Of a DNA stretch of 64,000 nucleotides, positions 16,605 to 54,513 are shown in pieces (the stretch's first letter is position 1; each line of letters begins with the position of its first letter). The notes beneath the pieces were generated by a model. It made no database searches. It saw only the letters and a program-made list of their open reading frames with translations, and had not been told where the DNA came from. A program made the translations under genes and the position numbers. Source of the stretch: a bacterium (lineage in GTDB: Bacteria; Bacteroidota; Ignavibacteria; SZUA-365). The stretch is taken from the NCBI GenBank assembly GCA_020444325.1, contig JAHLLD010000012.1, positions 1-64,000 of the forward strand, written 5' to 3'.

Positions 16605-17639
16605 TTGGGCGTAACCATATATGATATCGCCAAAGAGGCCAACGTCGGCGTTGGAACCGTTTCCAGGGTGCTGAACAATCACCCGTCGGTTTCCGATACC
16701 ACGAGACAGCATGTCATCGAAGTCGCCCAGCGACTTGATTACCGGCCAAATGCCTCAGCGCAGCGCCTTGCCCGGCGAAAGAGCCGAACGATTACCGCCA
16801 TCATGCCTTACATCACGAATTACTTTTTCGTTGAGCTGCTGGGCGGTATCCAGGATGCACTCTTCGAGCGGGATTATGATCTGCTGCTTTACGGCGTCAA
16901 TCATCCAAAGCAGATCGAGGTGTACCTGCAGCGCTCGCTTCGTGCGGGACATTCAGACGGCATGCTGATTGCCTCCATCGACCTCCCCCCCGACTACACA
17001 CAGAAATACCTAAAAAACAATTTCCCGATCATTCTGCTCGACAGATTCAACGAAAACTTCGACTCGTTTTTCGTGGAGAATGTCGAAGGCGCACGTGCCG
17101 CCACCGAGTATCTGATCTCGCTGGGACACAAACGTATCGCCATGATCACGGGTATTGAAGACACGACCCCCGCTCGTGAGCGTTCGACGGGGTATCTCAA
17201 GGCACTCTCCGCCTATCCACACGTGAAAAACATGGGTATTCACCACCCGGTAATGGAATCCAAAAACGATGGTTTCAGCAAGGATGCGGGCTATGAAGTC
17301 ATGAAACGCATTCTTGGCATGCCCGAAGATGAGCGTCCCACCGCAGTATTCGTGACCAGCGACATCCAGGCCTTCGGCGCCATGCACGCCATCAAGGAGA
17401 CCGGTGCTTCCTGCCCCGAAAACATGTCCATCGTCAGCTTCGACGACATCGAGCTGGCGCACTATTATGGACTGACGACCATGCACCAGCCCATCCGGAA
17501 ACTCGGCGTGCTGGCGACAGACAGGTTGTTCGCACGAATGGACGACAACAGTCTCGAGCCGCTGCACCGTCGCTTTACGCCGGAACTGATGATCCGCCAG
17601 ACAGCCGGACCGCCCCCTTCGCGCTTCGGTACCCTGTAA
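16605..17639 (+). CDS. LacI/GalR-family transcriptional regulator
   Basis: A 344-residue repressor-type regulator. The start is a TTG codon at 16605, supported by GGAGG five nt upstream and by the exact family N-terminus (VTIYDIAKEANVGVGTVSRVLN, a helix-turn-helix, then HPSVSDTTR and the hinge helix ASAQRLARRKS). The rest is a periplasmic-binding-protein-like sensor (ITAIMPYITNYFF; TAVFVTSDIQAFGAMHAI; MSIVSFDDIELAHY), which usually binds a sugar or sugar phosphate. The gene sits behind its own probable operator and 27 nt ahead of a TonB-dependent receptor, so it probably controls the surface-protein locus that follows. The effector cannot be read from the sequence; the TGGAAG/CTTCCA operator style resembles that of alpha-glucan regulators. 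Confidence 0.93.
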   Translation: MGVTIYDIAKEANVGVGTVSRVLNNHPSVSDTTRQHVIEVAQRLDYRPNASAQRLARRKSRTITAIMPYITNYFFVELLGGIQDALFERDYDLLLYGVNHPKQIEVYLQRSLRAGHSDGMLIASIDLPPDYTQKYLKNNFPIILLDRFNENFDSFFVENVEGARAATEYLISLGHKRIAMITGIEDTTPARERSTGYLKALSAYPHVKNMGIHHPVMESKNDGFSKDAGYEVMKRILGMPEDERPTAVFVTSDIQAFGAMHAIKETGASCPENMSIVSFDDIELAHYYGLTTMHQPIRKLGVLATDRLFARMDDNSLEPLHRRFTPELMIRQTAGPPPSRFGTL

Positions 17640-17666
17640 CACTCTCGCAACCAATGAGCGGTGACA

Positions 17667-23400: not shown

Positions 23401-24243
23401 CAGAATGACTGGCGTATCGATCTGGTCGACAGTCTTTCCGGCTTCCGCACAGCAAACCCGACGAAGAGCATGATTTACACCTTCGCAACCACCGACATTC
23501 TGCTCGGTCCGGGAGATACGCTGCGAGGCGCCCGGTATCCGTCTGACTACGAAATCCGCTTTGCGAACAACATCATCGACACTTCAGCCGCACTGTACGG
23601 CTCCCCCGCAATACCAGTGAATTTCACCGTCTACAATGTGACCGAGGATCATACCATCCCGTTCATCTTCGTCGACACCGACGGTAATGAACTGCTGTCG
23701 AAAACCGATCAGGTCGCCTTCTTTGACCTCAAGCAAAATGGCGATCCCTTTTTCACATGGATCATGGCCTTTGAAAATCGTCCCAGTATGCCTGAAGACA
23801 CGGTGTTCGATTTCGGCGATGGAGAGATGGTAGAGCTTCGGACGAGCAAACCATTCCGCCATGGAGATGTGTATACGTTTTCACCTTCGCTCCCCGAGGT
23901 CGACGAGGTGCAGGCGGGTGATCAGCTGAGCAGAGTCGGTGTGGTTCCGAATCCGTATGTCGCGGCCACGATTCATGAGTCGCCCCTTCCCCCGGGCGTA
24001 ACCACCGGTCGCGGTGAACGAAAGATCGACTTCATCCACGTTCCGCGTGACTCGAAGATCAGCATTTTCACCGCCCGTGGTGATCATGTCATCACGCTCC
24101 GGCACGAAAGCGCCATTGACGACGGAACGGTGACATGGAACCTGAAATCGAAAGAAAACCTGGATATCGCCTACGGTGTGTACTTCTACGTACTGGAATC
24201 ACCTGTCGGTGAGAAATCCGGAAAAATTGCAATCATCAAATAG
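20464..24243 (+). CDS. Large exported protein with Ca-loop motifs, FN3-like domain and T9SS-like tail (cassette A)
   Basis: A 1259-residue exported protein with signal peptide (YIIACALLLLAAELSAQ); a second ATG at 20470 is an alternative start. The N-terminal half has aromatic, beta-rich segments and at least four acidic loops of the type GxDNDxDGxxD (GIDNDNDAD, GVDNDLDGIIDE, LVDNDGDWNIDFDD, EKDNDGDGIIDQED), which probably bind calcium. An FN3-like domain follows (LRAVAGDGEVTLYWDRA ... YKIYKA). The end (VGVVPNPYVAAT ... ISIFTARGDHVITL ... YGVYFYVLES ... KIAIIK) is a T9SS-type sorting domain variant with PNPY. Its counterpart in cassette B is the 1087-residue protein. Role unknown; surface display by T9SS is inferred. 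Confidence 0.85.
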   Translation: MSMKRQWYIIACALLLLAAELSAQSGREYRRSNVMAGNRVKTVFGNWGVIGQPATGGPRGAWIYDNDGYLGDVSPFVGAEVQWNGTTFHSVVTAPMDRPTSRRDESPSGIPWTWEPVSGYFNASQDGVALLTDPETWPSFWPDRLNDATDPGWRGSWNGFFGKTSSSDEETYFVMDDNVDERYNFAANNTLGVAFKPDSRKPSRNGLALEMRVRGLQWAQFLAQDNIFWLYEITNTGTTNYNRAVFGMLVGTYIGVTGGDDSPGEYDDDFSFFDVEKDLTYTGDYPDNNSRNPSWVGPVGIVGYAFLESPGNPFDGIDNDNDADFASAAPYFQADSFDSTVASTGMTLVLIDDNYERSTVQLGSAPMTVNTRGLEIEVVPGSTVLMEGNVITDAQGNSIVNPNAYDGVDNDLDGIIDENYFLHYRQLKRDTQGNTLIDVLRPVRHVDYITGSGTSDNMVDERRDDLVDNDGDWNIDFDDVGRDGVDETNDYGEGDGTPTSGYDFGGFDTGLPGEPNIDKTDVDESDQVGLTSFQYFTPASDVTLADDNDLWDRMAPGFFDVPTSIVNNRPQRGEDGDFIYGSGYFPLLAGGTERFSLALVYGGGQGGFSTDLVDLLKHRETVQKIYNSNYRFPVAPDKPTLRAVAGDGEVTLYWDRAAERSFDPVLKEYDFEGYKIYKATDPNFIDAATVTDADGIVVGFKPVAQFDLDNNIQGYFRPSPALFETVSGRSYNLGSNTGLEHSWTDHEVQNGRTYYYAIVAYDRGNEQTDIFPAENSKRVRLTATGDPELDINTAMVVPNAPVAGYVEPLSGVKLTSPTSVATGALAYEVLDAMRLEPNSYEVTFEDVMSDEKDNDGDGIIDQEDFQELAQITTTYSVLNKTQQQFAFTIEDTLPVKLPHEYINADDVLVRTAAGPVLPTQYHIDTRRGDIRPTSAGSLSGDYEILYTYYPVYRSPYIAGSPYVSEAIDSDIFDGLQLNFQNDWRIDLVDSLSGFRTANPTKSMIYTFATTDILLGPGDTLRGARYPSDYEIRFANNIIDTSAALYGSPAIPVNFTVYNVTEDHTIPFIFVDTDGNELLSKTDQVAFFDLKQNGDPFFTWIMAFENRPSMPEDTVFDFGDGEMVELRTSKPFRHGDVYTFSPSLPEVDEVQAGDQLSRVGVVPNPYVAATIHESPLPPGVTTGRGERKIDFIHVPRDSKISIFTARGDHVITLRHESAIDDGTVTWNLKSKENLDIAYGVYFYVLESPVGEKSGKIAIIK

Positions 24244-24261: not shown

Positions 24262-25281
24262 ATGAACACCCTGCTACGATCTGTTCTGCTCGCATTGCTC
24301 GTTGCTGCACTGCCCATCGCCGCCGGTGCGCAGAGTAAGGTCGGCACGACTGCGGCACAGTTTCTCGGCATCGGCGTCGGTCCACGTGCCGTGGCTATGG
24401 GCGGCGCCTATGTCGCCATGAGTGATGACGCCTCTGCCATGTACTGGAACCCGGGCGCGCTTTCGCGCATGGATCATTCCCAGGTGGTCGCCTCCCACAC
24501 CGGATGGCTGGTCGGCACCGACCTGAACTGGGTCGCGCTGTCATTGCAACTCGACGCCAGCAATACCGTGGGCATCAGCCTGACGCAGCTCGACTATGGC
24601 GAAGAAGAAGTGCGTACGGTGGTGCAGCCCGAAGGTACCGGTGCGCGATGGACAGCGCAGGACCTGGCATTCACCATCAGTTACGCCAGAAACCTGACCG
24701 ACCGCTTCTCCATCGGCGGATCGTTCAAGTACATCACGCAGCAGATCTGGAACGAAAGTGCCTCGACGATCGCGTTCGATCTCGGACTGATTTTCACGAC
24801 GCCGTTTGACGGACTCCGTCTCGGCGCATCTCTCTCAAACTTCGGTGGCGACCTGCAGCTCGACGGCAAGGATCTCACCCGGCGCATCGATCTCGATCCG
24901 GAAAACACGGGGAACAACGAAACGATTGTCGCAAACCTGAAGACGGATTCCTGGGAATTGCCGCTGTTCTTCCGCGCCGGCATTTCCTATGATTTCATGC
25001 GCAACGACCTCTTTCGCTTCACGATGTCCGCCGATGCGGTGCGTCCGAACGACAACAACGAGCATGTCAATCTCGGTGGAGAATTCGGATACCGCGACAT
25101 TTTCTTCGTACGCGGCGGATACAAGGCACTATTCCTTGCGGATGCGGAAGAAGGACTCACGGCCGGCGTCGGACTGCATTATCCCCTGTTCGGAACGACC
25201 GCCGCCGCGATCGATTACACGTATCAGGAATTTGGAGTATTTGACGGTGTGCAGACCATCACGCTGTCGATCGATTTCTGA
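24262..25281 (+). CDS. PorV/PorQ-family outer membrane protein (cassette A)
   Basis: A 339-residue outer membrane beta-barrel with signal peptide (LLALLVAALPIAAGAQ) and the PorV/PorQ (UPF0164) hallmark near the N-terminus, GPRAVAMGGAYVAMSDDASA followed by MYWNPGAL. It ends in aromatic-alternating strands (DYTYQEFGVF ... LSIDF). In known T9SS, PorV shuttles cargo from the translocon to the attachment complex and binds the C-terminal sorting domain. Its position directly between two proteins with sorting tails suggests a cargo-specific PorV paralogue. It starts 18 nt after the previous stop codon. Confidence 0.88.
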   Translation: MNTLLRSVLLALLVAALPIAAGAQSKVGTTAAQFLGIGVGPRAVAMGGAYVAMSDDASAMYWNPGALSRMDHSQVVASHTGWLVGTDLNWVALSLQLDASNTVGISLTQLDYGEEEVRTVVQPEGTGARWTAQDLAFTISYARNLTDRFSIGGSFKYITQQIWNESASTIAFDLGLIFTTPFDGLRLGASLSNFGGDLQLDGKDLTRRIDLDPENTGNNETIVANLKTDSWELPLFFRAGISYDFMRNDLFRFTMSADAVRPNDNNEHVNLGGEFGYRDIFFVRGGYKALFLADAEEGLTAGVGLHYPLFGTTAAAIDYTYQEFGVFDGVQTITLSIDF

Positions 25282-25360
25282 TCCATAACCATTACTGGAA
25301 GCAACAGCTTTAATGCGTTCGCTCTATAATCTCACTTCAACGTTTTTGGAGGTACCCTCT

Positions 25361-28300
25361 ATGAGAAAAGGCTTATTCTTTGCCGCAGTGTTGATGCTGA
25401 CGCTGTTTGCGGGAAGTGCCATGGCACAGACCGTAGACGTGACGTTTGTCATCAATACCGCCACCGTGCCGGATACGCTCTGGCCGGATGAGGCCTTTGT
25501 GCAGATGCGCGGCGATACATCGCCGCTGACCTGGGACAATACGAGTCCGGTCGTGTTCACCAACGCCGGCGGCGATTACTGGACTGCCACAGTCGCCTTC
25601 CCTGAGAACACTACCGTGAATTACAAACTCTTCACCAATGCGGTCGACAGCGAGGGCGACAACGCCAACAAGGGTTGGGAAAACGACATCGATCCCGACG
25701 GCAACCGCGTACTGACCACGGGCACGACGAATATGACTGTGCCGGTGCAATTCGTCAACGGTTCGCCCGATCGCCAGGAGCAGTTCTGGACCCCGTGGCC
25801 GCCGCAGCAGGACAGTATCGCTGTCTGGGTGCGCGTCAACATGCAGGGCTGGGAAGGCTTCAATGCTGCAACACAGTTTGTCGGCGTCCGTGGCGCTGCA
25901 TCCCCCGACTATCTCGGCAACCTGAGTTGGGGACACACGAACTTCCTCACACAGGAACAGCCGCATGGAAACGGCGGCAGCCGCCAGTACAGCGCGGGCA
26001 ATTTCTATTCCGGACTGGTCCTCATCCCGAAGGACGAGGTGACGGATGGACAGACCATCGAGTACAAATTCGTCATCGTCAATTCCAACGACCCGGACGA
26101 AGATCCTGCTACCTGGGAAAGCCGCAACAACCGAACCTTCAACATCCCCGTAGGTAAAGCCGATACCACGCTTATGTGGTCATGGTTTGATGATGTACGT
26201 CCCGTCCCCTTCGTGGGAAGCGACACCATCGTTGTAAACTATACCGTCGATATGAGCACCGCCATTCAGGAGCGCGGCTTCCGTACGGGTGATACCCTCT
26301 TCGTCCAGGCAGGATGGAGCGGCACCGCACGCAACCTGGCCGGTGAGAGTCCGACTCGCACCATCCTGACCAAGCAGGGATTCACGAACACGTACGTGGC
26401 CTCCGACACCCTGGTGCTGAAGAAAGGCGATCGCGTGTTCTACCAGTATTACGTGCAGAAAGACGGTCAGGATATCCGCGAAACCTACTTCAATTTTGCA
26501 TTCGAGGAGAGCAGCGATCCGCTTGCAGAGCGCCGCTTCTTCACACCGGATGCAGACAACTTCGATGTGATGGATACGGAAGACAGTCGCGTCAGCGCCA
26601 ATCGCATGCCGCGTTTCCGCAATACCTCCGTGCTGTCGCAGCCTGTCACCGTCACCTGGGAACTTGATGTGCGTCCCGCCATTTACCAGGTCCTGGCCGG
26701 CGACACGCTGGTCGATATCCAGGGCAATGACAGCGTCATTGATCCCGCCAGCATTCTCACCAACGGTGCATGGATGAATGGTCCCGCCACCGGCGGATGG
26801 ACGACCTGGGGTCTTACACTCCGCGAAGACCTTCCGAAAAAGATGTATGACGATGGCACGAACGGCGACGCTGTCGCCGGAGACAGTGTGTTCACCGTGC
26901 AGATCATGTATGCACCGGACAGCACCGGATCGAAGAAGTTCATCGGACAGGAATACAAGTTCGGTATCAATGGCGGCGACAATGAAGGAGGATTCGGCAA
27001 CAACCATATCGCCAACATTGACGATTCGCAGGATGAAGTGACCATTCTCACGCAGTGGGGATCCATCGATCCCAACTTCTACGACGCATGGGATTTCGAT
27101 CTCCGTCAGCCCAAGCCGCAGAGCGTGGAAGTCACGTTCATGGTCAACACCGCTACGGTGCCTGACACCCTCTGGCCGGACCAGGCCTTCGTGCAGATGC
27201 GTGGTGACACCGCCCCGCTGACCTGGGACAACACCAGTCCAGTTGTGTTCACCAACGCCGGTGGAGACTACTGGATGGCGAAAGTCGAATTCCCCGCGAA
27301 TACGACCGTCAACTACAAGCTCTTCACCAACGCCGTGGATGGTGAAGGCGACAACGCCAACAAGGGTTGGGAAAACGACATCGATCCTGACGGCAACCGC
27401 GTCCTCACCACGGGCAACAGCGACATGATGGTGCCTGTGCAGTTCGTCAACGGCTCGCCCGAGCGCCAGGAACAGTTCTGGACTCCATGGCCGCCGCAGC
27501 AGGACAGTATCGCCGTCTGGGTGCGCGTCAACATGCAGGGCTGGGAAGGATTCAGCTCGGCCACGCAGTATGTCGGTGTTCGCGGCGCTGCATCCCCCGA
27601 CTATCTTGGAAACCTCAGCTGGGGACACACGCTGTTCCTCAATCAGGAGGAACCGCATGGGAATGGCGGAAGCCGTCAGTACACCGCCGGTAATTTCTAC
27701 TCCGGTCTCGTGCTGATCCCGAAGGATGAAGTCTCCGATGGCCAGACCATCGAGTACAAGTTCGTCATCGTCAATTCCGATGATCCGGACGAAGATCCCG
27801 CCACGTGGGAAAGCCGTAACAACCGCACCTTCAACATCCCCGTGGGGATGGCCGACACCACACTGCAGTGGGTATGGTTCGACGATGTGCGTCCGGTGCC
27901 CTTCGTCGGCAGCGATACGATCAACGTCAACTACACGGTCGACATGAGTACGGCCATTCAGGAGCGCGGTTTCCGCACGGGTGACACCCTCTTCGTCCAG
28001 GCCGGATGGAGCGGTACCGCTCGCAACCTGGCCGGCGAGAGTCCGACCCGGACCATCCTGACCAAGCAGGGCTTCACGAACACCTATGTCGGTTCCGAAA
28101 CACTTGTGCTGCGGAAGGGCGACCGCGTCTTCTACCAGTACTACGTGCAGAAAGACGGACAGGATATTCGTGAGACCTACTTCAACTTCGATTTTGAAGA
28201 CAGCAGTGATCCCCTTGCGGAGCGCCGCTACTTCACGCCGGAAACTGACGATGTCGATGTGATGGATACGGAAGACAGTCGTGTCAGCGCCAATCGTATG

Positions 28301-29104
28301 CCGCGCTTCCGTAACACTTCCGTCCTCTCGCGCGCCGTCACCGTGACCTGGGAGCTGGACCTTCGTCCCGCATTCTACCAGGTGCTCGCCGGCGATACGC
28401 TGGTCGATATCCAAGGCGTGGAAAACGTGACAACGACTGAGTTCATCCTCAACAACGGTGTCTGGATGAATGGTCCCGCCACCGGCGGATGGACGACCTG
28501 GGGACTCACCCTGCGTGAGGATCTCCCGAAGATGATGGTCGATGACGGAACGAATGGTGACGCTGTCGCAGGTGACTCCATCTACACCGTCCAGATGATG
28601 TACGCACCCGACAGCACGGGTTCGAAGCAGTTCGTCGGCCAGGAATACAAGTTCGGCATCAACGGCGGCGACAACGAAGGCGGGTTTGGTAATAACCACA
28701 TCGCCAACATTGACGATTCGCAGGATGAAGTCACGATCCGCACGCAGTGGGGATCCATTGACCCGAACTTCTACGATGCATGGGATTTCGATGCGGGCGG
28801 TCCGAAGGTGACTTCCGTCTCCCGTCTCGACGTGGTACCTGCTGGTTACACTCTCGAGCAGAATTACCCGAATCCCTTCAATCCGACGACCACGATCACC
28901 TACTCCATCACCCGATCGGAAAACGTGACCGTTAAGCTGTACGACGCACTCGGAAACGAAGTCGGTACGCTCATCAACCGTTATCAGACGCCCGGCACCT
29001 ATCAGGTGACGCTCGACGCAGCCGATCTCGGCAGCGGAACGTATTTCTACCGCATGACGGCAGGTTCGTTCTCGCAGATCCGCAAGATGACGCTGGTCAA
29101 GTAA
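25361..29104 (+). CDS. T9SS-secreted protein with duplicated carbohydrate-binding-like modules
   Basis: A 1247-residue exported protein. The start at 25361 has GGAGG 9 nt upstream and a clean signal peptide (LFFAAVLMLTLFAGSAMAQ). Almost all of the rest is two copies of a 564-residue block (nucleotides 25433-27124 and 27125-28816), highly alike also at DNA level. Each block has about four beta-sandwich units in the style of starch-binding CBM20/CBM48 or E-set folds (VNYKLFTNA; IEYKFVIVNSNDPDEDPATW; VNYTVDMSTAIQERGF; QEYKFGINGGDNEGGFG). The family assignment is by pattern only. The tail is a classical T9SS domain (LEQNYPNPFNPTTTITYSI ... GTYFYRM ... MTLVK). A TATAAT at 25325 and a TGGAAG half-site at 25296 hint at an internal promoter under the LacI-type regulator. 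Probably a surface glycan binder or S-layer-like protein. Confidence 0.85.
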   Translation: MRKGLFFAAVLMLTLFAGSAMAQTVDVTFVINTATVPDTLWPDEAFVQMRGDTSPLTWDNTSPVVFTNAGGDYWTATVAFPENTTVNYKLFTNAVDSEGDNANKGWENDIDPDGNRVLTTGTTNMTVPVQFVNGSPDRQEQFWTPWPPQQDSIAVWVRVNMQGWEGFNAATQFVGVRGAASPDYLGNLSWGHTNFLTQEQPHGNGGSRQYSAGNFYSGLVLIPKDEVTDGQTIEYKFVIVNSNDPDEDPATWESRNNRTFNIPVGKADTTLMWSWFDDVRPVPFVGSDTIVVNYTVDMSTAIQERGFRTGDTLFVQAGWSGTARNLAGESPTRTILTKQGFTNTYVASDTLVLKKGDRVFYQYYVQKDGQDIRETYFNFAFEESSDPLAERRFFTPDADNFDVMDTEDSRVSANRMPRFRNTSVLSQPVTVTWELDVRPAIYQVLAGDTLVDIQGNDSVIDPASILTNGAWMNGPATGGWTTWGLTLREDLPKKMYDDGTNGDAVAGDSVFTVQIMYAPDSTGSKKFIGQEYKFGINGGDNEGGFGNNHIANIDDSQDEVTILTQWGSIDPNFYDAWDFDLRQPKPQSVEVTFMVNTATVPDTLWPDQAFVQMRGDTAPLTWDNTSPVVFTNAGGDYWMAKVEFPANTTVNYKLFTNAVDGEGDNANKGWENDIDPDGNRVLTTGNSDMMVPVQFVNGSPERQEQFWTPWPPQQDSIAVWVRVNMQGWEGFSSATQYVGVRGAASPDYLGNLSWGHTLFLNQEEPHGNGGSRQYTAGNFYSGLVLIPKDEVSDGQTIEYKFVIVNSDDPDEDPATWESRNNRTFNIPVGMADTTLQWVWFDDVRPVPFVGSDTINVNYTVDMSTAIQERGFRTGDTLFVQAGWSGTARNLAGESPTRTILTKQGFTNTYVGSETLVLRKGDRVFYQYYVQKDGQDIRETYFNFDFEDSSDPLAERRYFTPETDDVDVMDTEDSRVSANRMPRFRNTSVLSRAVTVTWELDLRPAFYQVLAGDTLVDIQGVENVTTTEFILNNGVWMNGPATGGWTTWGLTLREDLPKMMVDDGTNGDAVAGDSIYTVQMMYAPDSTGSKQFVGQEYKFGINGGDNEGGFGNNHIANIDDSQDEVTIRTQWGSIDPNFYDAWDFDAGGPKVTSVSRLDVVPAGYTLEQNYPNPFNPTTTITYSITRSENVTVKLYDALGNEVGTLINRYQTPGTYQVTLDAADLGSGTYFYRMTAGSFSQIRKMTLVK
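25433..28816 (+). repeat. 1692-bp direct tandem duplication within the gene
   Basis: The block starting at GTA 25433 recurs from GTG 27125, exactly 1692 bp (564 codons) later, and runs to about 28816. Long stretches are identical in DNA (for example around 25663-25698 and 27353-27388), which suggests a fairly recent duplication or gene conversion. Confidence 0.93.
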
Positions 29105-31984: not shown

Positions 31985-32116
31985 GCGATTCAGGCAGTTA
32001 TGATACTGAAAACATGGGAGTAGGATGCCCCCGTCCCGAATATAACACCTCGATGGCCAAAATGTAACAGACACATCCGCCCCCTCTCACGGGAGGGATG
32101 AAATCAGCACCGTTCA

Positions 32117-37132: not shown

Positions 37133-37252
37133 TTGAATCCTCCTGGACACTGCAGTGTATCCTTTGATCTGATGGAAAAAAATACCACCAGAAATAAGAC
37201 AATAACTGGAGAACTTTGTTACATCAAAATGTCACGAAAATACGAAAAGCTG

Positions 37253-45005: not shown

Positions 45006-46841
45006 CTAAGGGACCTCCTTCCCTGCCTGCATCATTCCTTCCATCACGGCTTCATACAGTGGCATCACCCCGGGCATGGCCGGGATTCGTCCGCCGAATC
45101 CGAGCAAGCGCACGGTATGCATCTGCATGGCTGCCGGTTGCAGCGCATCGAGCATCGCTGCGTCAATGCGAATGCTGCTGCGCCCTGCAAGCCTCCGAAG
45201 CAGCTGATCGGTGCGCGCCCGGCGAATCTGCGGCCCTTCCTTTCGTGCGACGGTGTCACGCAGGGCCTGCATTCCGCTCAGTCGCATTCCCGGATAGCGC
45301 CGATCAAGCAATTGGAAAAAGGTGTAGCCGCCGTCAGCAGCGACGGGACCACCTCCGTCAGCGATGCGCATGCCGAAAGCCAGTCGGCCGATGCGTCCGC
45401 GCTCCGACACTGCGAACCAGTCCGAGGCACCGTTAAACGCCGCGTTCTCCCCTTCCTTCCGAAGCTGTTTGGCTATCCGCTCGAGTGTCTCCCCTTCCTG
45501 GAATGTCTTCACGGCTGTGGCAATACGGGAGGAGTCGCCTGCGTGTGCCTGGAGGATGCGAACCTCGACCGGGGCACCGAAGAGGTCCGGTCTGGTAATG
45601 TACAGGTGCCAGAGACTGTCATCATCCGCCACGAATTGTTCGAAAAGGAGATCCGGCACACTCTGGGCGAGTCCATTTGCCGTCCACATCGTGAGCTGAT
45701 TGCGAACCTCACTGTCGCGCTGCAATCCCAGCGCATACGCTTTTCGCGTCACGACAAATCGATCGAGCATGTCGCGCACACGCTCCCGGTATAACCTGCG
45801 GGCAAGATCCGCCTGCTCCCGCTTCAGTCGCAGGTCGAGCTGTGCCAGCCTGTCGAGCGCCTCCCCGAGGGTCAGGACATCGCTTCCCACGCGTGCAAAT
45901 GCTGCATCGAGATCGCTGCGCCACGTGGAGCGAAGGGAATCGAACAGCAGGTCCGATGCCTGCATCATATCGTCACCACGCGCATATTGCCTGCGGTAGT
46001 CCGCGAGCAGCGCTTCACCCAGTCTGCGGTACCAGGTTTCATCCATCTGCGCCTGACGGCCTTCCCAGAGCCTCTGTACGAAAGCGACGGACTCAGTTGC
46101 TTCCCTCTCGTTCCGCAATGTGTTTTCGATACGTTTGTATTGCGCATCGAAACTGTAATCATCGGGCAGTGCGCTCTGCCGTACCCTGCGCCGCAGCAGA
46201 TACCAGCCATCGTCCCCTTTGAGAGGATTTGAGACGCAACCGCTGCAAAGCGTATCCATCGCCTGCAACAATGCTGGCTCAGGCGCCGATTCCGATGCTG
46301 CGTCATTCGCCGTCCCGGATCGCATGCGGACTGCAAGCAGCGTATCGAACGGGGTACCTCCGCGGAGGATGTCACCTACATTGCGTGCCCCCTGCTCACT
46401 GTCAAAGCGCAGGAAATCGAATTCGACCGCCTTCTGCTCCGCAAGATAGCGCGCACGTACATCGGCGGCGCTGACCTGCACCTTCGCGCGGACGCTGTCG
46501 CGATACAGCAGATCACGTGCAAACATCTCTTCCGCCATGCGAAGATTGCGCCGGAAACGATCCTCCGCATCATACCCGAGGCGTCTCGCCTCGGAAGCAA
46601 GAAGCCGTTCAGCCACCAGGGAATACAGGAACTGCCGCTTCACGACCGGAGTGAGTCCCGCCTGATCTTTGTAAGGAAATACCGAAAGCGCATACCGAAG
46701 CCGGAACTCACCGGCAGTGATCCCGGCATCCCCCACCCTCGCCAGCACCGCCTCATCCGGCACCGCCTCATCCGGCACCCCCTGCGCCAACAAAACGACC
46801 GGTGCCAGCAGTATAAGCCAGATTGTAATGAATCGCATCAT
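45006..46841 (-). CDS. SurA/PpiC-like periplasmic peptidyl-prolyl isomerase-type chaperone
   Basis: A 611-residue exported protein with signal peptide (FITIWLILLAPVVLLAQ). The N-terminal part is SurA-like (VLARVGDAGITAGEFRLRYAL, VKRQFLYSLVAERLLASEARRLGYD), followed by long charged helices and parvulin-like segments (VEFDFLRFDSEQGARNVGDIL; GWYLLRRRVRQ; VEVRILQAHAGDSSRIATAVKTF; GYTFFQLLDRRYPG). It probably helps fold outer membrane proteins in the periplasm, which suits a genome region full of barrels. The start is one of two adjacent ATGs (46841 or 46838), without a clear ribosome site. A PDEAV peptide is repeated just after the signal peptide. Whether the isomerase sites are active is uncertain. 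Confidence 0.75.
   Translation of the reverse strand: MMRFITIWLILLAPVVLLAQGVPDEAVPDEAVLARVGDAGITAGEFRLRYALSVFPYKDQAGLTPVVKRQFLYSLVAERLLASEARRLGYDAEDRFRRNLRMAEEMFARDLLYRDSVRAKVQVSAADVRARYLAEQKAVEFDFLRFDSEQGARNVGDILRGGTPFDTLLAVRMRSGTANDAASESAPEPALLQAMDTLCSGCVSNPLKGDDGWYLLRRRVRQSALPDDYSFDAQYKRIENTLRNEREATESVAFVQRLWEGRQAQMDETWYRRLGEALLADYRRQYARGDDMMQASDLLFDSLRSTWRSDLDAAFARVGSDVLTLGEALDRLAQLDLRLKREQADLARRLYRERVRDMLDRFVVTRKAYALGLQRDSEVRNQLTMWTANGLAQSVPDLLFEQFVADDDSLWHLYITRPDLFGAPVEVRILQAHAGDSSRIATAVKTFQEGETLERIAKQLRKEGENAAFNGASDWFAVSERGRIGRLAFGMRIADGGGPVAADGGYTFFQLLDRRYPGMRLSGMQALRDTVARKEGPQIRRARTDQLLRRLAGRSSIRIDAAMLDALQPAAMQMHTVRLLGFGGRIPAMPGVMPLYEAVMEGMMQAGKEVP
46746..46780. repeat. 15-bp in-frame tandem repeat after a signal peptide
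   Basis: CACCGCCTCATCCGG occurs twice (46746-46760, 46761-46775) and begins a third time, encoding PDEAV-PDEAV in the SurA-like protein. Confidence 0.85.
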
Positions 46842-46845
46842 AGTC

Positions 46846-47035
46846 TGATGAATGTGCAAATTTCAAATTGCAAATTCCAGATCACAGATTGCAATCTACA
46901 ATCTGAAATCAGGGATTGCTTCCATGATCAGAGCAGACATCCGGGTACACACCAGGGGAAGCAATCCCTGCTCCAGGCCGGTTTGCAGTCTGAAATCTGC
47001 AATTTGCAATCTGTCATCTGCAATCTGTCATCAGC
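46846..47035. repeat. Inverted array of AATCTGCAAT-type words around a 14-bp palindrome
   Basis: Intergenic DNA much richer in A/T than its surroundings. The left half (46855-46910) repeats words such as AATTGCAAAT and GATTGCAATC; the right half (46984-47032) repeats AATCTGCAATTTGCAATCTG-like words. In the middle CAGGGATTGCTTCC (46910-46923) and GGAAGCAATCCCTG (46957-46970) are perfect inverted repeats separated by 33 nt. No coding sequence is seen. It sits upstream of the SurA-like gene and downstream of the cassette B PorV gene. Confidence 0.75.
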
Positions 47036-47106: not shown

Positions 47107-48159
47107 TTAGAAGCCGACCTTCAGGGTAAAGACATGCTGACCGTCGAAGACTTCGCGGGTGCGATAGGCATAATCGAGAATCAGCTTGGCATCGCCGGCC
47201 CATTGCTGGAGACCGACACCGAATGACGGACCGTACATGTAGGCGGCATCGCCGTTGTAGTCGGTCTTGTCATTGCCCGTGATGGGCATGGATCCACGCA
47301 GTGAGAGCATCTTGTCGAAGGTGTATTCGACCGCGACGCGATACTGGTCACTGAGGAAATTGTTGTTTTCGAAGGACGTCATGACGGAAAGGTCATGCAG
47401 TTCCTCGAAAGTGGTGCCGTAGGCCATGCCGATTTCCAGCGAGGTCGGGAGCTGGAAGCCCGCGGCCTGGATGGCAAGCAGCTGGTTGGTGCGATCGGCA
47501 TTGATTTCGTCGACATTGCGCAGGAGGCCGGGACCGGAATACGTCATGTTGCCACCGAGATGGCGAAGCGTGACGCCCAGTTCGAGCCCGTTGACTCCGG
47601 CGAGGCCGTTGTACTGCACACCGACGTCAAAGGCGAAGCCGGAGCTGGAAACACGGTCAAGTTCTTCACTCACGAGGTTGGCGGTGACACCGGCACGAAT
47701 ACGGTCGGTGAGCGCGCGCGAGTAGGTGAGTCCGAGTGTGATAAAGGTCGGTGTAAACACCGCACCCGTACCATCCGGCTGACGCTCATCCGTGATAAGG
47801 ATGTCGCCGAAGGAAAAAGACTTGACCGAGAAGGCAACGTGACCGAAACCGGCGAAGTTGCTTCCGACACCGAAATAGCTGATGCCGTCGTTGTCGAGAC
47901 CGTTCATCTGCGAAAACATGACTTCCACACCGTAGTTCATGCCGGAAAGTCCTGCAGGGTTATAGTAGATCGCTTCCACACCGGTGATGCCAGCGGTGTA
48001 GGCAGCGCCTAGCGCTATACCCCGGGCTCCAATTGGGACCAGCAACGGATCAGCTGCTGCTGTTCCTTCCTTGTTACCGCCGCCGGCAATCGCCTCGGAT
48101 GCCATCAGGGCCAACGCCATGAACAGCGCCGCGGCAAGATATCTGGGACTGATGCGCAT
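47107..48159 (-). CDS. PorV/PorQ-family outer membrane protein (cassette B)
   Basis: A 350-residue beta-barrel with signal peptide (YLAAALFMALALMASEAIAG) and the PorV/PorQ hallmark GARGIALGAAYTAGITG followed by AIYYNPAGL. It ends in aromatic-alternating strands (LILDYAYRTREVFDGQHVFTLKVGF), which matches the end of the cassette A homologue (DYTYQEFGVFDGVQTITLSIDF) almost position by position. The start at 48159 has GGAG upstream; the frame is open 16 codons further. It lies 65 nt after the 1087-residue cargo-like gene, third in the cassette, and would act as a cargo carrier or anchor in T9SS. Confidence 0.88.
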   Translation of the reverse strand: MRISPRYLAAALFMALALMASEAIAGGGNKEGTAAADPLLVPIGARGIALGAAYTAGITGVEAIYYNPAGLSGMNYGVEVMFSQMNGLDNDGISYFGVGSNFAGFGHVAFSVKSFSFGDILITDERQPDGTGAVFTPTFITLGLTYSRALTDRIRAGVTANLVSEELDRVSSSGFAFDVGVQYNGLAGVNGLELGVTLRHLGGNMTYSGPGLLRNVDEINADRTNQLLAIQAAGFQLPTSLEIGMAYGTTFEELHDLSVMTSFENNNFLSDQYRVAVEYTFDKMLSLRGSMPITGNDKTDYNGDAAYMYGPSFGVGLQQWAGDAKLILDYAYRTREVFDGQHVFTLKVGF

Positions 48160-48224
48160 GTGAGTTACTCCTTTATTACGTTCGTTCACTTTCATAATCG
48201 ATTTCAAGATGATTACCCTCCGGA

Positions 48225-51200
48225 TCAGATACGATCCAGGAACTGGGTTTCAGTAACCACGGCAAGTTTGAGAATTTTCTCAACCCCGAGGCCGGGCATT
48301 TCGATGTGGACGTAGTAAAGACCACTTGCGACAGGCAGTCCGTTGTCGTTCTGCAGATCCCAGGTGGCGTATTGCGTCCCGTCATCTGTTTTCTGGAAGG
48401 AAGCGACTAGAACTCCGGAAATCGTATAAATCTTGAAATTCGCGCGCGGCGGCAGGTGATTGAAGGTGACAAAACGCTGGTATTTATTGCTTTCGCGCTT
48501 ATTGGATCCATAGTACGGATTCGGGAAGACGTTGATTTCAGTGATGTCTTCCTTGGCCGTCTCGTCATCGTACGTCGACTTGAAGGTCGTGAAGGTGAAA
48601 CGGTCTTCCGCACTGAAGGGGACCTTCGGTGTGATGCGATACAGATCGCCGTCACGCCATGCTTTCGTCAGTCCGGTGTACTGCGGCTTCAGGATATACC
48701 AGCCCCAATAAATGATAGGCATGGTGTTTCCGCTCTCCTGGATGGAGAAATCAGGATCGGCGTACGCCGGGTTCGGTGTATCACTGTAAGGCTCATCGAT
48801 GATAAAGAGCATTTCCCTGTCATCGGCGAGTGCGGTCGGATTGTACATCTGGTTGTTGCTCGGGCGGTTGATACGCTCGATGAAGGCATACGAGAGCTGC
48901 ACGTGATTCGCGGGATCGGGATCAGTGACGTCCCACACCTGAATCGGGGATTCGAAGTAGCCCTGGTATCCGTAGTTCGGCCGTGCGCCACGCAGGTACA
49001 TGTAGCCCTTCGAGGTGTTGTCTTCGTCGAAACGGATTTCAACTACCTTGGTGACTTCGTATCCCTTGATGTTCGAACCGAACTGGTCGGGAGAGCCGAG
49101 CGTACTCGACGTGTACCCCATCTGCCAGGAATAACCACCTTCACCGCGCGTGCTTTCAAACGCTTCGAAGACTTCCGGACCACCTTCCCATTCACGAAGA
49201 AGGATCTCATCGTGGTTCTCTTTCGGGGCGCCATTGTCAAAACCGTCCTTGTTGAACTGGCGGTAATAGCCGGTGCCGCTCACGCCGATTTTGAAGCCGT
49301 CAAGGATGAAGAATTCCTTGTCGAGTCCTTCCATTGAAGGACTGCCGTCAATCAACACCTCATTCGTGGAGATGTCAGTCAGTGTCCAACTCGAGTAGTC
49401 GTCACGGATGAGCGTCTCATCGACAAAACCGTCGAGATCGCCGTCGTACGTGGTTTCAACCTGTCCGAGCGACTTGAACGACACTTCGTAGGAATCACCG
49501 GTGAGTTCCATGGGATCAGTGACAACGACTTCGACGAAGCCGGCGGACTTTCCTGTCACGTGACTGACGGGAATTTCGTCGTCGACCTTGTCGGTGTATC
49601 GCCAGCCCGGATCCGGCATCTGGGGACGCACGGTGATAATCTTCGGGGTAGACTCAAGCTGCCGCGGCGACGCATCGGGATCTTCGTTGTATGCGTAGGA
49701 AGTCACTGCGAAGTAGTACGGCTGGTTGTTGACCAGCGGACGATCCGTGAGTACATCAGTCGTGACATCATAGAGACGCTGAACACCGCCATCATTGCCG
49801 AGCTGCTGCGGCAGCTCAAGCACGATACCGGATTCGGGATCAATCTGTTCATCGAAAATAACCGATACTCCGTCGGTGACATCGTATGTGGCCAGACGGA
49901 TACCCTCATCGAGTGTCGAACTCGAAGTCGGGAACTGGTACACGTTGTAACCCTGGAACTTGAATCCACGATCGAAATGATTTTCAATCTTTTGGACCTG
50001 CTCCGGTTCACCCCACTGCAGAAGAACACGTTTGTTCTGCAGCGATACGTTTACGTTCGGCGAGGGCGGTGCTTTCGGGAGATCAAAATTATTGTCGAAC
50101 GCCAGCTGTGCGAACTTGTCGTAAAACTTGAGCACCTTCAGGCTGCTCAAACGGTCAGAGCCCTGAGCGACCAGCGAGGAGACAACGACCTCCTGCGTAT
50201 CACCCACGGCGAGCGTGAACGGTCCGGCCGTCATAAGGAAGCGGCGGTCACCCGGACTGTTGACGATACCGTCAATCCAGCCTTCACCGGTAATGGGGTC
50301 TCCGGCGAGGCAGACGATGACTTCGTTGCCCGTTGTGGGATCGACGAATGCGCGTCCGTTATACAGCTTGCCTGTGAGATAGTTGTACATCTCAATCGTT
50401 CCCACAGCATTTTTCAGCCGGGGATCGCGGTAAATGGAGCTTCCATTGATGTAGAAAGCAAAGGTGGAAACCGGGAGGTTCTTGACTCCCTTGCGGATTC
50501 CGAAATTGTACACGGCGGAATCACCGGCGCTTTCAATGATCGGACCCTGGAAGAAGTCATAGCCCGCTGCGGGAGGAATGCCGTAGACTTCGTCTTTCGC
50601 AAGACCGTTGTAAACGTACCCCAGGCTGAGCGAGGTGTCGATGCCGACATAATCATCGAAGGCATCGCCGAGATCGGGATCTGACCATTTCGCGAAATAG
50701 GTCTGCGTCATGTCATTGAGTCCCTTATTGATCACGGTGTATTTCGTGAACACCATGTTCGACAGCGGACCGGTCTGACTGTACGCCCAGACCAGTGTAT
50801 GGCACTCGATGCCTATCGGCTGCGAGCCGTAGAGGTCGCGCACACGGCGCTCATCGAGATCATTGGTAACAAACCAGATGGTCTCGTCACCGGGAAGCAA
50901 TGGCGTGTCGGAAAGACAGTCATCGTATCCCTTGGAGAGGAATTCCTCGAAATCGGGCTCATAGACGCCATTCCCGTTCTTGTCGACCCAGGGAGCACCG
51001 AGTTCGTCGGGCCACTCCAGGAAATCCTGTCCCATCTGAGCCTGGTATTCAGGATCAAGGGAAGCAAAGCCTTCGGTATCGACCTTGCGGATCTTGAACA
51101 TGCGGTTGAGCGGATCGTTGGGGTCTGACGCCGTACCATCACCTTTGATCGGACCGGCTGCCATTCCCGCATTGTACGTTGCGCCACCGACGCGGGGCTC

Positions 51201-51488
51201 GCCATCGACGAGACCGCCCCAGATGATGCCATCCGTGAAAATCGTGTACTTGGCGCTGCCGTTCGGCCACTCGAAACCGGATCCGTCAGACAGCGGATTG
51301 TGTGCCATGCGGCCGTTGTTCGACAGCCACATCAGACACTGGTTTACGGAGATGAAATCCCACTGGTCATTCTTTGTGACCTTTGAAAGGGATCCATCCT
51401 TCTTTGCACCCTCCGGAGACTCTGCACGGACGGGAAGAACCATCGCCAGCAGGAGCAGGGGGATGATATAATGCAATTGTCGTTTCAT
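48225..51488 (-). CDS. Large exported protein with FN3-like domain and T9SS-like tail (cassette B)
   Basis: A 1087-residue exported protein. The start at 51488 has GGAGAA upstream and a signal peptide (YIIPLLLLAMVLPVRA). The middle contains an FN3-like unit (SLQNKRVLLQWGEPEQ ... GYNVYQFPTSSS) in the same position as in the cassette A protein, and aromatic beta-rich regions before and after. The tail (ITEINVFPNPYYGSN ... NFKIYTISGVLVASF ... GLYYVHIEM ... ILKLAV) is a T9SS-like sorting domain with PNPY, the same variant as in cassette A, but with an unusual extra VTETQFLDRI at the very end. Acidic Ca-loop motifs are fewer (DGDLDGFVDE). Probably a surface protein partnered with the adjacent receptor and PorV. 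Confidence 0.85.
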   Translation of the reverse strand: MKRQLHYIIPLLLLAMVLPVRAESPEGAKKDGSLSKVTKNDQWDFISVNQCLMWLSNNGRMAHNPLSDGSGFEWPNGSAKYTIFTDGIIWGGLVDGEPRVGGATYNAGMAAGPIKGDGTASDPNDPLNRMFKIRKVDTEGFASLDPEYQAQMGQDFLEWPDELGAPWVDKNGNGVYEPDFEEFLSKGYDDCLSDTPLLPGDETIWFVTNDLDERRVRDLYGSQPIGIECHTLVWAYSQTGPLSNMVFTKYTVINKGLNDMTQTYFAKWSDPDLGDAFDDYVGIDTSLSLGYVYNGLAKDEVYGIPPAAGYDFFQGPIIESAGDSAVYNFGIRKGVKNLPVSTFAFYINGSSIYRDPRLKNAVGTIEMYNYLTGKLYNGRAFVDPTTGNEVIVCLAGDPITGEGWIDGIVNSPGDRRFLMTAGPFTLAVGDTQEVVVSSLVAQGSDRLSSLKVLKFYDKFAQLAFDNNFDLPKAPPSPNVNVSLQNKRVLLQWGEPEQVQKIENHFDRGFKFQGYNVYQFPTSSSTLDEGIRLATYDVTDGVSVIFDEQIDPESGIVLELPQQLGNDGGVQRLYDVTTDVLTDRPLVNNQPYYFAVTSYAYNEDPDASPRQLESTPKIITVRPQMPDPGWRYTDKVDDEIPVSHVTGKSAGFVEVVVTDPMELTGDSYEVSFKSLGQVETTYDGDLDGFVDETLIRDDYSSWTLTDISTNEVLIDGSPSMEGLDKEFFILDGFKIGVSGTGYYRQFNKDGFDNGAPKENHDEILLREWEGGPEVFEAFESTRGEGGYSWQMGYTSSTLGSPDQFGSNIKGYEVTKVVEIRFDEDNTSKGYMYLRGARPNYGYQGYFESPIQVWDVTDPDPANHVQLSYAFIERINRPSNNQMYNPTALADDREMLFIIDEPYSDTPNPAYADPDFSIQESGNTMPIIYWGWYILKPQYTGLTKAWRDGDLYRITPKVPFSAEDRFTFTTFKSTYDDETAKEDITEINVFPNPYYGSNKRESNKYQRFVTFNHLPPRANFKIYTISGVLVASFQKTDDGTQYATWDLQNDNGLPVASGLYYVHIEMPGLGVEKILKLAVVTETQFLDRI

Positions 51489-51540
51489 GTATTTCTTCTC
51501 CAACATGTATTCCGATTGAATTCTGCCTACTGGAAATGGA

Positions 51541-54513
51541 TTAGAAGTTCACACGCACACCGAACCAGACGCGACGGGGTGCACTGTAGACACCGGCGTT
51601 CATCAGGACCTGCTGGTAGTAGAAGTCCTGATAGAGATTGGCAAAGACATCGCCGTAGCTGGCGTAGTTTGCAATCTGCGTCTGACCTTCATCGGTGGCC
51701 AGGTAATTGTTGCTCTCCGCACTACCGGAAGTGGCGTAGACACCTGTGACATTCTTGATGTTCAGCAGATTGGTCACGCGGATGTAGAAGTTCCAGTCGA
51801 GCGGACCAATGGTGACCGTCTTGTCGAAACGTGCATCCAGGTTGAACACCCACGGGGTGCGGGACGCATTGATCGCCTCAATCGGGGTGCGGCGGTCGCC
51901 GAAGGAGAATTCGTTCACGCGGGTATACGGTGTGCCGGAATTGAAGGTGAAGAGGAAATTGGCTCCGAAACGCTCGAGCAGCTGTACGCCGAAGACCTCC
52001 GGACCGTCATCCCTGCCGAAGCGATAGTCGACGTTCAGCGAACCGCGATGCGTCTGGTCAAAGGCCAGTGTCATCGGGTACTTCGGAAGGAACGGCGTCT
52101 CTGTCGGGGAGAGCCAGAGGGCACGGAAGGACGAAGAAGGACTCGATCCCGTTCCGCGTGCGTCGCTGTAAGTATAGTTGGTCTGCAGCATGATGCGCTC
52201 GGTGCGGCGCATGGTGATCTGCAGCGAGACACCGGTGGTGGTCGCGAAATCGCCGTTCACCCAGGCGTAATATGCGGGATGTTCCGCGCCGAATTCGGCC
52301 GGAATCTGACGCTGCTGAATCTGGTCGCGAATATCCTTGTAGAACGCGCCGATGTCAAAGGCCAGGTTCTCACCGAGCTGCTGACGGAAACCAAAGTCAT
52401 ACTGGATGGTCTTTTCAGGACGCAGGCCGAAACCGACCGGCGAGCTGACTGCATATCCACCCTTGATCTGCGAGGAAATGGTCGCGTTTCCGAGATACAC
52501 GTCACGCAGACGCGACTGCTGCACGAAAATACCGTACTGCGCGTAGAACACCGTCTGGTCCGTCACCGGGAAGGAGAAACCGAGACGCGGACTCACGGTC
52601 TTGGACGGCTCGACATCCTTGACGTTATCCGGACTCTGGTCGATCAGACCGTCAGAGGTGAACTTGATGTTCTGCGGATCCACGAATTCCTTGGAGTTCG
52701 TGTTTATATAGTCGTAGCGCAAACCGACGTTGATGACGAGATCTTCGAGTTCGATCTTGTCGAGAACGTAGAATGCGGCAAACACAGGCTCCTTGGGTCC
52801 GTCAGGACCGCTGTCGAGCTTGCGTCCGTAGTAGTCATATCCATAGTTGTTCGTACCCATGGATCCCGCGATCTCGAGATCTGTGGCATCCGGGCTCTGA
52901 CGCACGAAGCGCGCAAGGCTGAATGCACTGATTCCGAAGGAACGGATGGAGTACTGTGTGAACTCACCACCGGTCTTGATCTCATGCGTACGGCCGATCT
53001 GATGCACGAAGTTGAGCTTGGTCTGCAGGGAGTTGAAGCTCGTCTTGCCGTAGCTGGAGCCAATCGGGTAACCGGCGGGATAGAAGCTGGCGCCGAAGGC
53101 GGTGATGGGCTGCTCTGGGATACCGTCAGCCAGGAAGTGATAACCGTACTGGGCATTCGCAACGGAATCGCCGTAGGCAAAGATGTCGTGCTTGAGGTCA
53201 GGATCCATCCCCACACCGAAGTTCCCGAAGAATCCGACGTACAGTTCATAGAACGTGGTCGGACTCAGGAGATGCGTGAATTTACCGTTCAAGCTGTAAT
53301 CTTCACTCTGATTGAGTCCGGCGCGCTGCTCAGCGAGCTGCGTCGTGAGTCCGGCACCGTCATGACTCGTTCCGTATCCGTACGATCCATCGATACGCAC
53401 GTTGATCGGATTGAGATCAAAGGTAAGGTTACCATTGAGCAGGTAGCTTTGACTCGCGGCGTTGTAGAAATATCCGCCGGGGAAGCGATAATCGATCTTC
53501 TGTGCGCTCGGTCCGAGTCGCGGATCAAAAATACCCACTTTCATCTGTTCTTCCGGAGAAAGCAGTGCGTGGGCGTCGGTCTGACGCAGCAGAGGATCGT
53601 AATACGTCGTCAGGTCGTAATCCTCACGCCAGCCAGAAGTCGGCGTGCGGGAAAAACTGTTCTGCGCCGCGACGAAGAATTTCACCGGACCGTACAGCGG
53701 TCCACCCGCCGTGAGGATATAGTTGCTCGATCCGGACTTGTACGTACCCAGGGTACGCTCACCGTAGTCTGCCCACGGGTAGTTGTCCGTGTACACCTCG
53801 AGTTCCACATTCAGCTTGCGTCCACCGGTACGCGTGGTCGTACTGATCAGACCGGCGTTTGCGCCGCCAAACTCTGCGGAATATCCACCAGCCTGGAGAC
53901 TCTGCTCTGCAATGGCATTGTTGATGAGGGACAGGGAGCGTCCGCCGGCGAGCGGGTTGTTGACCTGCATGCCGTTGATGACAAAACCTGTCGCATCCGC
54001 ACGACTGCCACGGATGTAGAGGCCGCCGCCGAGAGAAACCACACCGGCCTGTGTGGCGGAGATATTCTCCACACCACGCACAGGAAGGTTTTCAATATCC
54101 TCCTGCGTCACCGTTGTTTTGCTGTTTGTGACATTCTTGTCAACCAGCGGTTTCTCAGCGACAATAATGACCTCCCCTTCCAGTTTGTAGGAATCGGAAG
54201 GCAGCTGAATGTCCTTATCCGTCGTTTCATTCGACCGGACAAGCACATCCTTCACCTCGGTTTTCTGATAACCGATGTAACTTACCGTGATGTTCACCTT
54301 GCCGATGGGCACGTTGAGAACAACGTACCCGCCGTTGGCATCCGTTGCAGCACCACGCGTGGTACCACCGGAATTCACTATGACGTTTGCTCCGATCAAG
54401 GGCTCTCCGGTTTCAAGATCAGTGACCTTGCCGGATACCTTTCCCGTCTGCGCAAGCAAAGAAGCGGGAAAGAGCCCAAGCAGAAGCAGAACGAACAGTA
54501 GCTTTTTGTGCAT
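51541..54513 (-). CDS. TonB-dependent outer membrane receptor (cassette B)
   Basis: A 990-residue receptor. The start at 54513 is set by GGAGG 8-10 nt upstream and the signal peptide (LLFVLLLLGLFPASLLAQ). A carboxypeptidase-regulatory domain (KVTDLETGEPLIGANVIV; YIGYQKTEVKD) is followed by a plug (LYIRGSRADATGFVINGMQV; AGGYSAEFGGANAGLIST) and a long barrel ending RVWFGVRVNF. The segment IIVAEKPLVDKNVTNS corresponds to VITASRPLVRKDLTAS in the cassette A receptor, so the two are homologous. First gene of cassette B, 52 nt ahead of the 1087-residue protein. Its substrate is unknown and no SusD is present. Confidence 0.9.
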   Translation of the reverse strand: MHKKLLFVLLLLGLFPASLLAQTGKVSGKVTDLETGEPLIGANVIVNSGGTTRGAATDANGGYVVLNVPIGKVNITVSYIGYQKTEVKDVLVRSNETTDKDIQLPSDSYKLEGEVIIVAEKPLVDKNVTNSKTTVTQEDIENLPVRGVENISATQAGVVSLGGGLYIRGSRADATGFVINGMQVNNPLAGGRSLSLINNAIAEQSLQAGGYSAEFGGANAGLISTTTRTGGRKLNVELEVYTDNYPWADYGERTLGTYKSGSSNYILTAGGPLYGPVKFFVAAQNSFSRTPTSGWREDYDLTTYYDPLLRQTDAHALLSPEEQMKVGIFDPRLGPSAQKIDYRFPGGYFYNAASQSYLLNGNLTFDLNPINVRIDGSYGYGTSHDGAGLTTQLAEQRAGLNQSEDYSLNGKFTHLLSPTTFYELYVGFFGNFGVGMDPDLKHDIFAYGDSVANAQYGYHFLADGIPEQPITAFGASFYPAGYPIGSSYGKTSFNSLQTKLNFVHQIGRTHEIKTGGEFTQYSIRSFGISAFSLARFVRQSPDATDLEIAGSMGTNNYGYDYYGRKLDSGPDGPKEPVFAAFYVLDKIELEDLVINVGLRYDYINTNSKEFVDPQNIKFTSDGLIDQSPDNVKDVEPSKTVSPRLGFSFPVTDQTVFYAQYGIFVQQSRLRDVYLGNATISSQIKGGYAVSSPVGFGLRPEKTIQYDFGFRQQLGENLAFDIGAFYKDIRDQIQQRQIPAEFGAEHPAYYAWVNGDFATTTGVSLQITMRRTERIMLQTNYTYSDARGTGSSPSSSFRALWLSPTETPFLPKYPMTLAFDQTHRGSLNVDYRFGRDDGPEVFGVQLLERFGANFLFTFNSGTPYTRVNEFSFGDRRTPIEAINASRTPWVFNLDARFDKTVTIGPLDWNFYIRVTNLLNIKNVTGVYATSGSAESNNYLATDEGQTQIANYASYGDVFANLYQDFYYQQVLMNAGVYSAPRRVWFGVRVNF

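Follow-up and report, generated by a model that had tools for sequence, protein, structure and literature searches.

Introduction

The type IX secretion system (T9SS), as described, relies on PorV as the single general shuttle of its type A substrates and on PorP/SprF shuttles for type B substrates. PorU and PorZ keep their C-terminal domains, which remain attached to PorV and PorQ; cognate PorV-like barrels have been proposed to protect such retained tails (PMC10202324). For type B substrates, an adjacent PorP/SprF barrel serves as both shuttle and anchor (PMC12618676, PMC9143113), and some of these substrates are orphans that share a shuttle (PMC12618676). The FadL-family protein BamG serves the Bacteroidota BAM complex (PMC12611786). 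Here, we analyze a stretch of 64,000 nucleotides (the window; positions 1 to 64,000 of contig JAHLLD010000012.1, assembly GCA_020444325.1) from a bacterium of the class Ignavibacteria, in which two cassettes each encode, in the same order, a TonB-dependent receptor, a large exported protein, and an outer-membrane barrel of the PorV family. Our search of the open-access literature turned up no account of this trio, nor one that links PorV in Ignavibacteria with TonB receptors. Sequence comparisons strongly support the view that the trio is a unit of ancient origin that has been duplicated repeatedly in Ignavibacteria and relatives, and we estimate a probability of roughly 0.55 that each trio forms one surface assembly, in which a private PorV would act as carrier and anchor and the large protein would sit beside the receptor as a substrate-capturing subunit.

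Results

Two diverged cassettes and further copies in one genome

A preliminary description of the window, made from its letters alone, had reported three minus-strand genes of a cassette B. All three open reading frames (ORFs) exist at the coordinates given there, but the assigned starts at 54513, 51488, and 48159 are internal to frames that open at 54525, 51506, and 48207, respectively. In the order receptor, large protein, barrel, the features are as follows.

51541..54513, minus strand: TonB-dependent receptor (ORF from 54525), with a CarboxypepD_reg-like N-terminal domain plus plug, a SusC-like architecture
48225..51506, minus strand: Lg_B, large exported protein of 1093 aa with a Sec signal peptide; alternative start at 51488 possible
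50082..51380, minus strand: Lg_B residues 43–475, super-beta-sandwich in an AlphaFold2 model, by structure comparison
48258..48554, minus strand: Lg_B residues 985–1083, PNPY-type C-terminal sorting domain, from seven predicted strands and NF052228 and TIGR04183 scores
48228..48257, minus strand: Lg_B residues 1084–1093, extension past the last strand, ending TETQFLDRI; conserved and predicted to be unstructured
47107..48159, minus strand: PorV_B, PorV-family outer-membrane barrel (ORF from TTG at 48207), by NF033709

The receptor matches Pfam PF13715, PF13620, and PF07715. The signal peptide of Lg_B has no lipobox cysteine, and its tail finds its best NCBIfam match in the PorZ C-terminus (NF052228, 37.9 bits), with 19.1 bits against the type A profile TIGR04183, under the cut-off of 23. 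Across B-type large proteins, the last ten residues are conserved, with the family pattern ExQxLDRF. PorV_B scores 130 bits against the PorV/PorQ family NF033709 (cut-off 90), 38.6 against the PorV equivalog NF033710 (cut-off 250), and 56.9 against the PorQ equivalog NF033711 (cut-off 220).

Cassette A spans 17661-25281 on the plus strand.

17661..20435, plus strand: TonB-dependent receptor, by the trio-receptor profile and Pfam
20464..24243, plus strand: Lg_A, large exported protein with a PNPY tail and the end GKIAIIK
24262..25281, plus strand: PorV_A, PorV-family barrel (NF033709, 210 bits)

The two cassettes hold the same three gene types in the same order and, as had been proposed, are homologous in all three genes: the receptors are 27% identical over 1038 aa (266 bits), the large proteins 24–29% in two pieces (62 and 56 bits), and the barrels 26% over 329 aa (108 bits). 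Lg_A covers positions 42–1062 of the 1070 in the trio profile. Profile scans found no Pfam domain match in the Lg_A and Lg_B passengers, with T9SS tails sub-threshold at best; Lg_A matched neither TIGR04183 nor PF18962. Against a trio-receptor profile built with both receptors included, receptor A scored 743 bits and receptor B 1251 bits (positions 1–970 of 970); the other receptor of the window (197-3079) scored only 58, and this likeness is therefore not general to TonB receptors. By sequence, the two cassettes represent types that diverged long ago and not products of a recent duplication.

The preliminary description counted two copies. Both are real, but a closer copy and a partial one elsewhere in the genome had been overlooked. 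Copy C (contig C8, L024:4423-11831) is 58, 57, and 58% identical to cassette B over receptor, large protein, and barrel; PorV_C scores 136 bits against NF033709, over the cut-off of 90, and the tail of Lg_C reaches 17.8 bits as a type A domain (TIGR04183/PF18962), under the cut-off of 27. Copy D (L028:9189-13036) has a receptor and a PorV without a large protein between them. Its surroundings on contig C2 (L028:8107-17716) consist of an NHL-repeat gene, the PorV, the receptor, an unannotated protein of 489 aa, and a type A-tailed M4 protease. Judged by gene lengths, two relatives (L250, L254) share this layout and likewise lack a large protein between the receptor and the PorV. A further arrangement without a receptor, in which a BNR-repeat protein with a T9SS tail is followed by two tandem PorV-family genes, occurs at L025:8484-12018, L252, and L257, and a similar group in genome G050 (L248).

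The genome also encodes ordinary T9SS machinery. SprA profile matches fall within one 2593-aa frame on contig C5, indicating a SprA/Sov translocon; the PorU sortase is encoded on contig C18 (NF033707, 957 bits), and one operon holds PorU, canonical PorV (263 bits, cut-off 250), and an M6-like protein. PorQ is present too (254 bits, cut-off 220). The trio barrels score far under the PorV, PorQ, and PorV2 equivalog cut-offs and are thus paralogues, not parts of the T9SS machine itself. At least 150 type A tails occur in this genome, so nearly all substrates do without a private PorV.

The trio is conserved and its members keep their partners

We scanned named genomes for B-type large proteins, using a PNPY peptide pattern, and obtained 80 loci. 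Complete trios at 53 of them, together with cassettes A and B and copy C, gave 56 trios for tree comparison, from Ignavibacteria, Melioribacteraceae, Kryptonia, KSB1, Marinimicrobia, Zixiibacteriota, and others. Outside the class, too, the order receptor, large protein, PorV holds for most of the homologues sampled, and it persists in several phyla although the flanking genes differ. Intergenic gaps in the trios have medians of 32 and 26.5 nt. Six trios that seemed to lack PorV (L039, L072, L073, L118, L174, L267) do have it: a longer frame on the opposite strand had masked the gene, which tblastn locates in place.

Two comparisons bear on whether the three genes have evolved together. First, the three family trees agree, with Mantel r values of 0.71–0.85 among the 56 trios that were equaled in 0 of 2000 permutations. 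Second, we controlled for kinship by shuffling partners only within genomes, in a set of 22 genomes that together have 45 trios and of which 12 have 2–10 each. The observed r values of 0.956, 0.946, and 0.921 were never matched in 5000 shuffles (null means 0.54–0.55, sd 0.08); paralogous trios thus keep their own partners. In this comparison, PorV distances track those of the cognate receptor (r about 0.95) and the large protein. The preliminary description had suggested a search for matching trees, and they were found beyond what species relatedness explains. Its argument for a functional unit, which rested on two copies, was weak; the unit itself is strongly supported, and it is the breadth of conservation that carries the claim.

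Four trios of genome G050 (L243, L245, L246, L247) have a short middle protein of 707–775 aa that matches the trio profile mainly C-terminally, with receptor and PorV in their usual places, suggesting that the tail, PorV, and receptor are the constant elements.

Among 22 genomes of the class, those with a B-type match have 8–18 members of the PorV/PorQ family, and most of those lacking such a match have 3–5. The 14 such genes listed for G050 comprise ten trio members, one canonical gene, one in a group of a tail-bearing protein followed by two PorV genes, and two that stand alone.

PorV linkage follows the tail

The passenger domain of the large proteins is also found in other T9SS proteins. 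Among 162 distinct passenger-domain proteins with enough downstream sequence, a PorV gene lay within 2 kb downstream for 115 of the 124 with PNPY tails and for none of the 27 with canonical PNPF (type A) tails. Because the named-genome scan had used a PNPY pattern, we recomputed the contrast on profile-search loci only, where PorV stood beside 45 of 52 PNPY tails and 0 of 24 PNPF tails (p 7e-14, a value that overstates the evidence because related proteins are counted separately). On a passenger-domain tree with weak nodes collapsed, about 16 changes of tail class occurred, and PorV was absent in 15 of 17 non-PNPY clades. One passenger has thus repeatedly borne another tail, with PorV linkage differing accordingly. 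Together with the ten of 14 genes in G050, the PNPY counts place PorV-like genes in relatives mostly beside such cargo genes, in keeping with the preliminary description.

Two candidate rules for the tail did not survive. A split between basic and LDRF C-termini was replaced by PNPY versus PNPF, as A-type tails end GKIAIIK yet have a PorV. PNPY as a general mark of retained tails was ruled out by PorU tails, which read PNPV, PNPF, and PNPM. At four loci (L163, L193, L197, L285), the passenger domain occurs in tandem arrays that bear type A-like tails and lack both PorV and receptor.

Predicted structures

We modeled PorV_B from 63 sequences (pLDDT 89) and Lg_B by AlphaFold2 from 55 sequences (mean pLDDT 84). 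The best match of the PorV_B model in the PDB was F. johnsoniae PorV (8gl6_F; Z 33.0, 3.6 Å over 284 residues), with FadL-type channels next (Z 26–29), and a PDB profile search matched 6h3i_F (E 1e-21). Residues 43–475 of Lg_B are predicted to form a sandwich resembling the N-terminal domain of GH15, GH65, GH94, and GH116 enzymes. VIA-align gave Z 19.5 against 9ju0_CCC (257 aligned residues, 3.3 Å) and Z 18.9 against glucoamylase 1lf6, and dextran dextrinase, bacterial glucoamylase, and GH94/GH116 enzymes matched with Z 17–19.5. Lg_B beyond the sandwich is nearly all beta, so the catalytic alpha/alpha barrel is missing. The fold alone shows no function; as modeled, it fits carbohydrate binding without cleavage. 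In the C-terminal domain, strands are predicted at 992–1083, seven as in Ig-like type A tails, a likeness by strand count.

A model for the trio and its rivals

We propose that the large protein would be made with a Sec signal peptide and cross the outer membrane via the ordinary SprA translocon of the genome, where the neighboring PorV paralogue, and not the general shuttle PorV, would collect it. Its PNPY domain would probably escape cutting by PorU and stay bound to the private barrel, which would then be both carrier and probable permanent anchor. Held there next to the TonB-dependent receptor that its operon encodes, the protein would capture substrate. Cognate binding, tail retention, the receptor complex, and nutrient capture (of glycans for the A-type trios) are steps that we infer. 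We favor this mechanism because the Lg_B tail best matches that of PorZ and because PorU, PorZ, and type B substrates provide precedents for retention.

Several observations weigh against this model of a private carrier and anchor. Nine PNPY-tailed proteins have no adjacent PorV; one of them (L166, genome G070) ends EQQFLDHY, exactly as does a trio member of the same genome (L165), and such proteins may share a shuttle. Genome G021 has 17 PorV-family genes and no B-type match at the threshold used. Block co-duplication alone could yield matching trees. Moreover, we found no tail-specific co-variation with PorV: by distance correlation over 55 trios, r was 0.66 for tail and PorV and 0.76 for passenger and PorV. 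The preliminary idea that PorV paralogues are specialized by cargo therefore stands only in part; it fits the PNPY/PNPF split and the PorQ–PorZ and SprF–type B precedents, but the co-variation test was negative. Finally, the tightest correlation among named-genome trios was that of receptor and PorV (0.85), which, together with copy D, means that PorV might serve the receptor.

In one alternative, the PorV paralogue would be a carrier only: PorU would remove the tail, the protein would go to lipopolysaccharide or be released, and co-location with the receptor would be regulatory. Seven predicted tail strands as in Ig-like type A tails, a PorU gene in the genome, and the collection of type A tails by canonical PorV (PMC12618676) are compatible with this scheme. 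We nevertheless judge it unlikely, as at least 150 type A tails stand against a handful of PorV paralogues and the tail best matches the retained one of PorZ.

A serious rival, if a rather improbable one, would make the PorV-like barrel a receptor partner, an assembly factor, or a small-molecule channel, with proximity to a T9SS substrate incidental. The receptor–PorV correlation and the absence of a large protein between the two genes in copy D speak for it, as do the FadL-type channels among the structural matches and the precedent of FadL-family BamG (PMC12611786). However, PorV is the best match in both structure and sequence (Z 33; 6h3i_F, E 1e-21), PorV presence follows the tail type of the exported protein, and a tail-bearing protein also precedes the receptor-less PorV-family pairs (L025, L252, L257).

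That the trio is a block duplicated and inherited together, with no physical or functional specificity between PorV and large protein, would explain the missing tail-specific co-variation and the tree congruence expected of any tight operon, but it is most improbable given an order kept across several phyla with differing flanking genes and a PorV linkage repeatedly missing where the tail is not PNPY.

Neighboring genes

The genes beside the two cassettes of the window are of different kinds.

16605..17639, plus strand: LacI-family regulator immediately upstream of cassette A (Pfam LacI plus Peripla_BP_3)
25313..29104, plus strand: CBM20 repeat protein downstream of cassette A (PF00686), with a canonical type A T9SS tail (PF18962)
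45006..46859, minus strand: SurA-like peptidyl-prolyl isomerase downstream of cassette B (PF13145)

A congener (G001, L255) has a gene of equal length (344 aa) at the position of the LacI-family regulator. In G050, the neighbors of several A-type and short-passenger trios encode GH16 plus malectin, CBM9, CBM20/48, a GHL10 hydrolase, and pectinesterase. This genome lacks SusD (PF07980), as do 16 of 20 genomes of the class, which is weak support for replacement because SusD is rare in trio-lacking genomes of the class too. Together, the LacI and CBM20 genes beside cassette A, the carbohydrate-active enzyme (CAZyme) neighbors in G050, and the absence of SusD make it plausible that A-type trios play a SusD-like part at the surface.

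B-type trios neighbor genes for a SurA-like isomerase, a GWxTD protein, a PIG-L deacetylase, and a lipid A acyltransferase, and the isomerase beside cassette B is retained in close relatives (e.g. L068). A GWxTD-domain gene (PF20094) directly follows PorV in copy C (L024:11958-13358), and similarity places one at this position in over 20 of the named trios (e.g. L075, L081, L087, L100), often with the lipid A acyltransferase gene next; other trios have the PIG-L deacetylase at the GWxTD position.

Elsewhere, the window has four large VWA-domain genes (11978-14248, 29213-32074, 32978-35017, 35021-37150). Two of these have T9SS tail matches, one over and one under the cut-off, and one has an FGE-sulfatase domain.

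Discussion

The trio points to a mode of assembling surface receptor complexes that has so far not been described. Tentatively, and at clearly less than even odds, we suggest an undescribed class of uptake complex that would be the main receptor-partner system of SusD-less Ignavibacteria and relatives, pairing a SusC-like receptor with a T9SS-exported protein whose carbohydrate-enzyme sandwich has lost the catalytic barrel and which is held permanently by its own PorV via the PNPY tail, a further kind of T9SS sorting tail. If so, PorV would have expanded into dedicated substrate–anchor pairs, which would add a further T9SS sorting route and couple secretion directly with the uptake of nutrients. 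A function would also be gained for many genes of the PorV/PorQ family and for large unannotated exported proteins of widespread bacteria, most of them uncultured. The PNPY/PNPF contrast inside one passenger family offers an experimental handle on which tail needs a private shuttle.

Comparison with known systems

The nearest precedents are PorQ–PorZ and PorU–PorV, in which a barrel of the PorV/PorQ family likewise holds one resident substrate by an uncleaved tail; the tail of Lg_B is closest to that of PorZ. PorQ and PorV, however, are single general parts, whereas the trios comprise several paralogues, and each of these has a large protein and a receptor of its own. Canonical PorU, PorV, and PorQ are encoded in this genome apart from the trios.

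In the type B/SprF system of F. johnsoniae, as in the trios, a substrate gene is followed by the gene of a FadL-fold barrel; the pairs there are cognate, and orphans exist. The trio barrels, by contrast, belong to the PorV/PorQ family (NF033709), the tails are PNPY and Ig-like, and a receptor completes the operon. The PorP/SprF profile TIGR03519 gave no match over the cut-off in eight genomes of the class and none in this genome; the type B tail profile TIGR04131 also gave no match, but its control was equally silent and we did not use this result as evidence.

SusCD systems resemble the trios in combining a CarboxypepD_reg TonB-dependent receptor with a large surface protein, and A-type trios lie near CAZyme genes, with a LacI regulator in the window. 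The trio partner, unlike SusD, has no lipobox and is a T9SS substrate. On the receptor side, a CarboxypepD_reg domain and plug are present, and the SusC-type profile TIGR04056 matches receptor A only over residues 26–152, below the cut-off. PorV2/PorU2 (NF052325/NF052324) provides a recognized PorV paralogue, but PorV_A, PorV_B, and PorV_C score 47–80 bits against a PorV2 cut-off of 325, and a closer candidate lies elsewhere (L031, 207 bits). The component families and the PorP/SprF and PorQ types of pairing are thus known; for a set of dedicated PorV paralogues tied to a PNPY tail and a TonB receptor, we found no description in the open-access literature searched.

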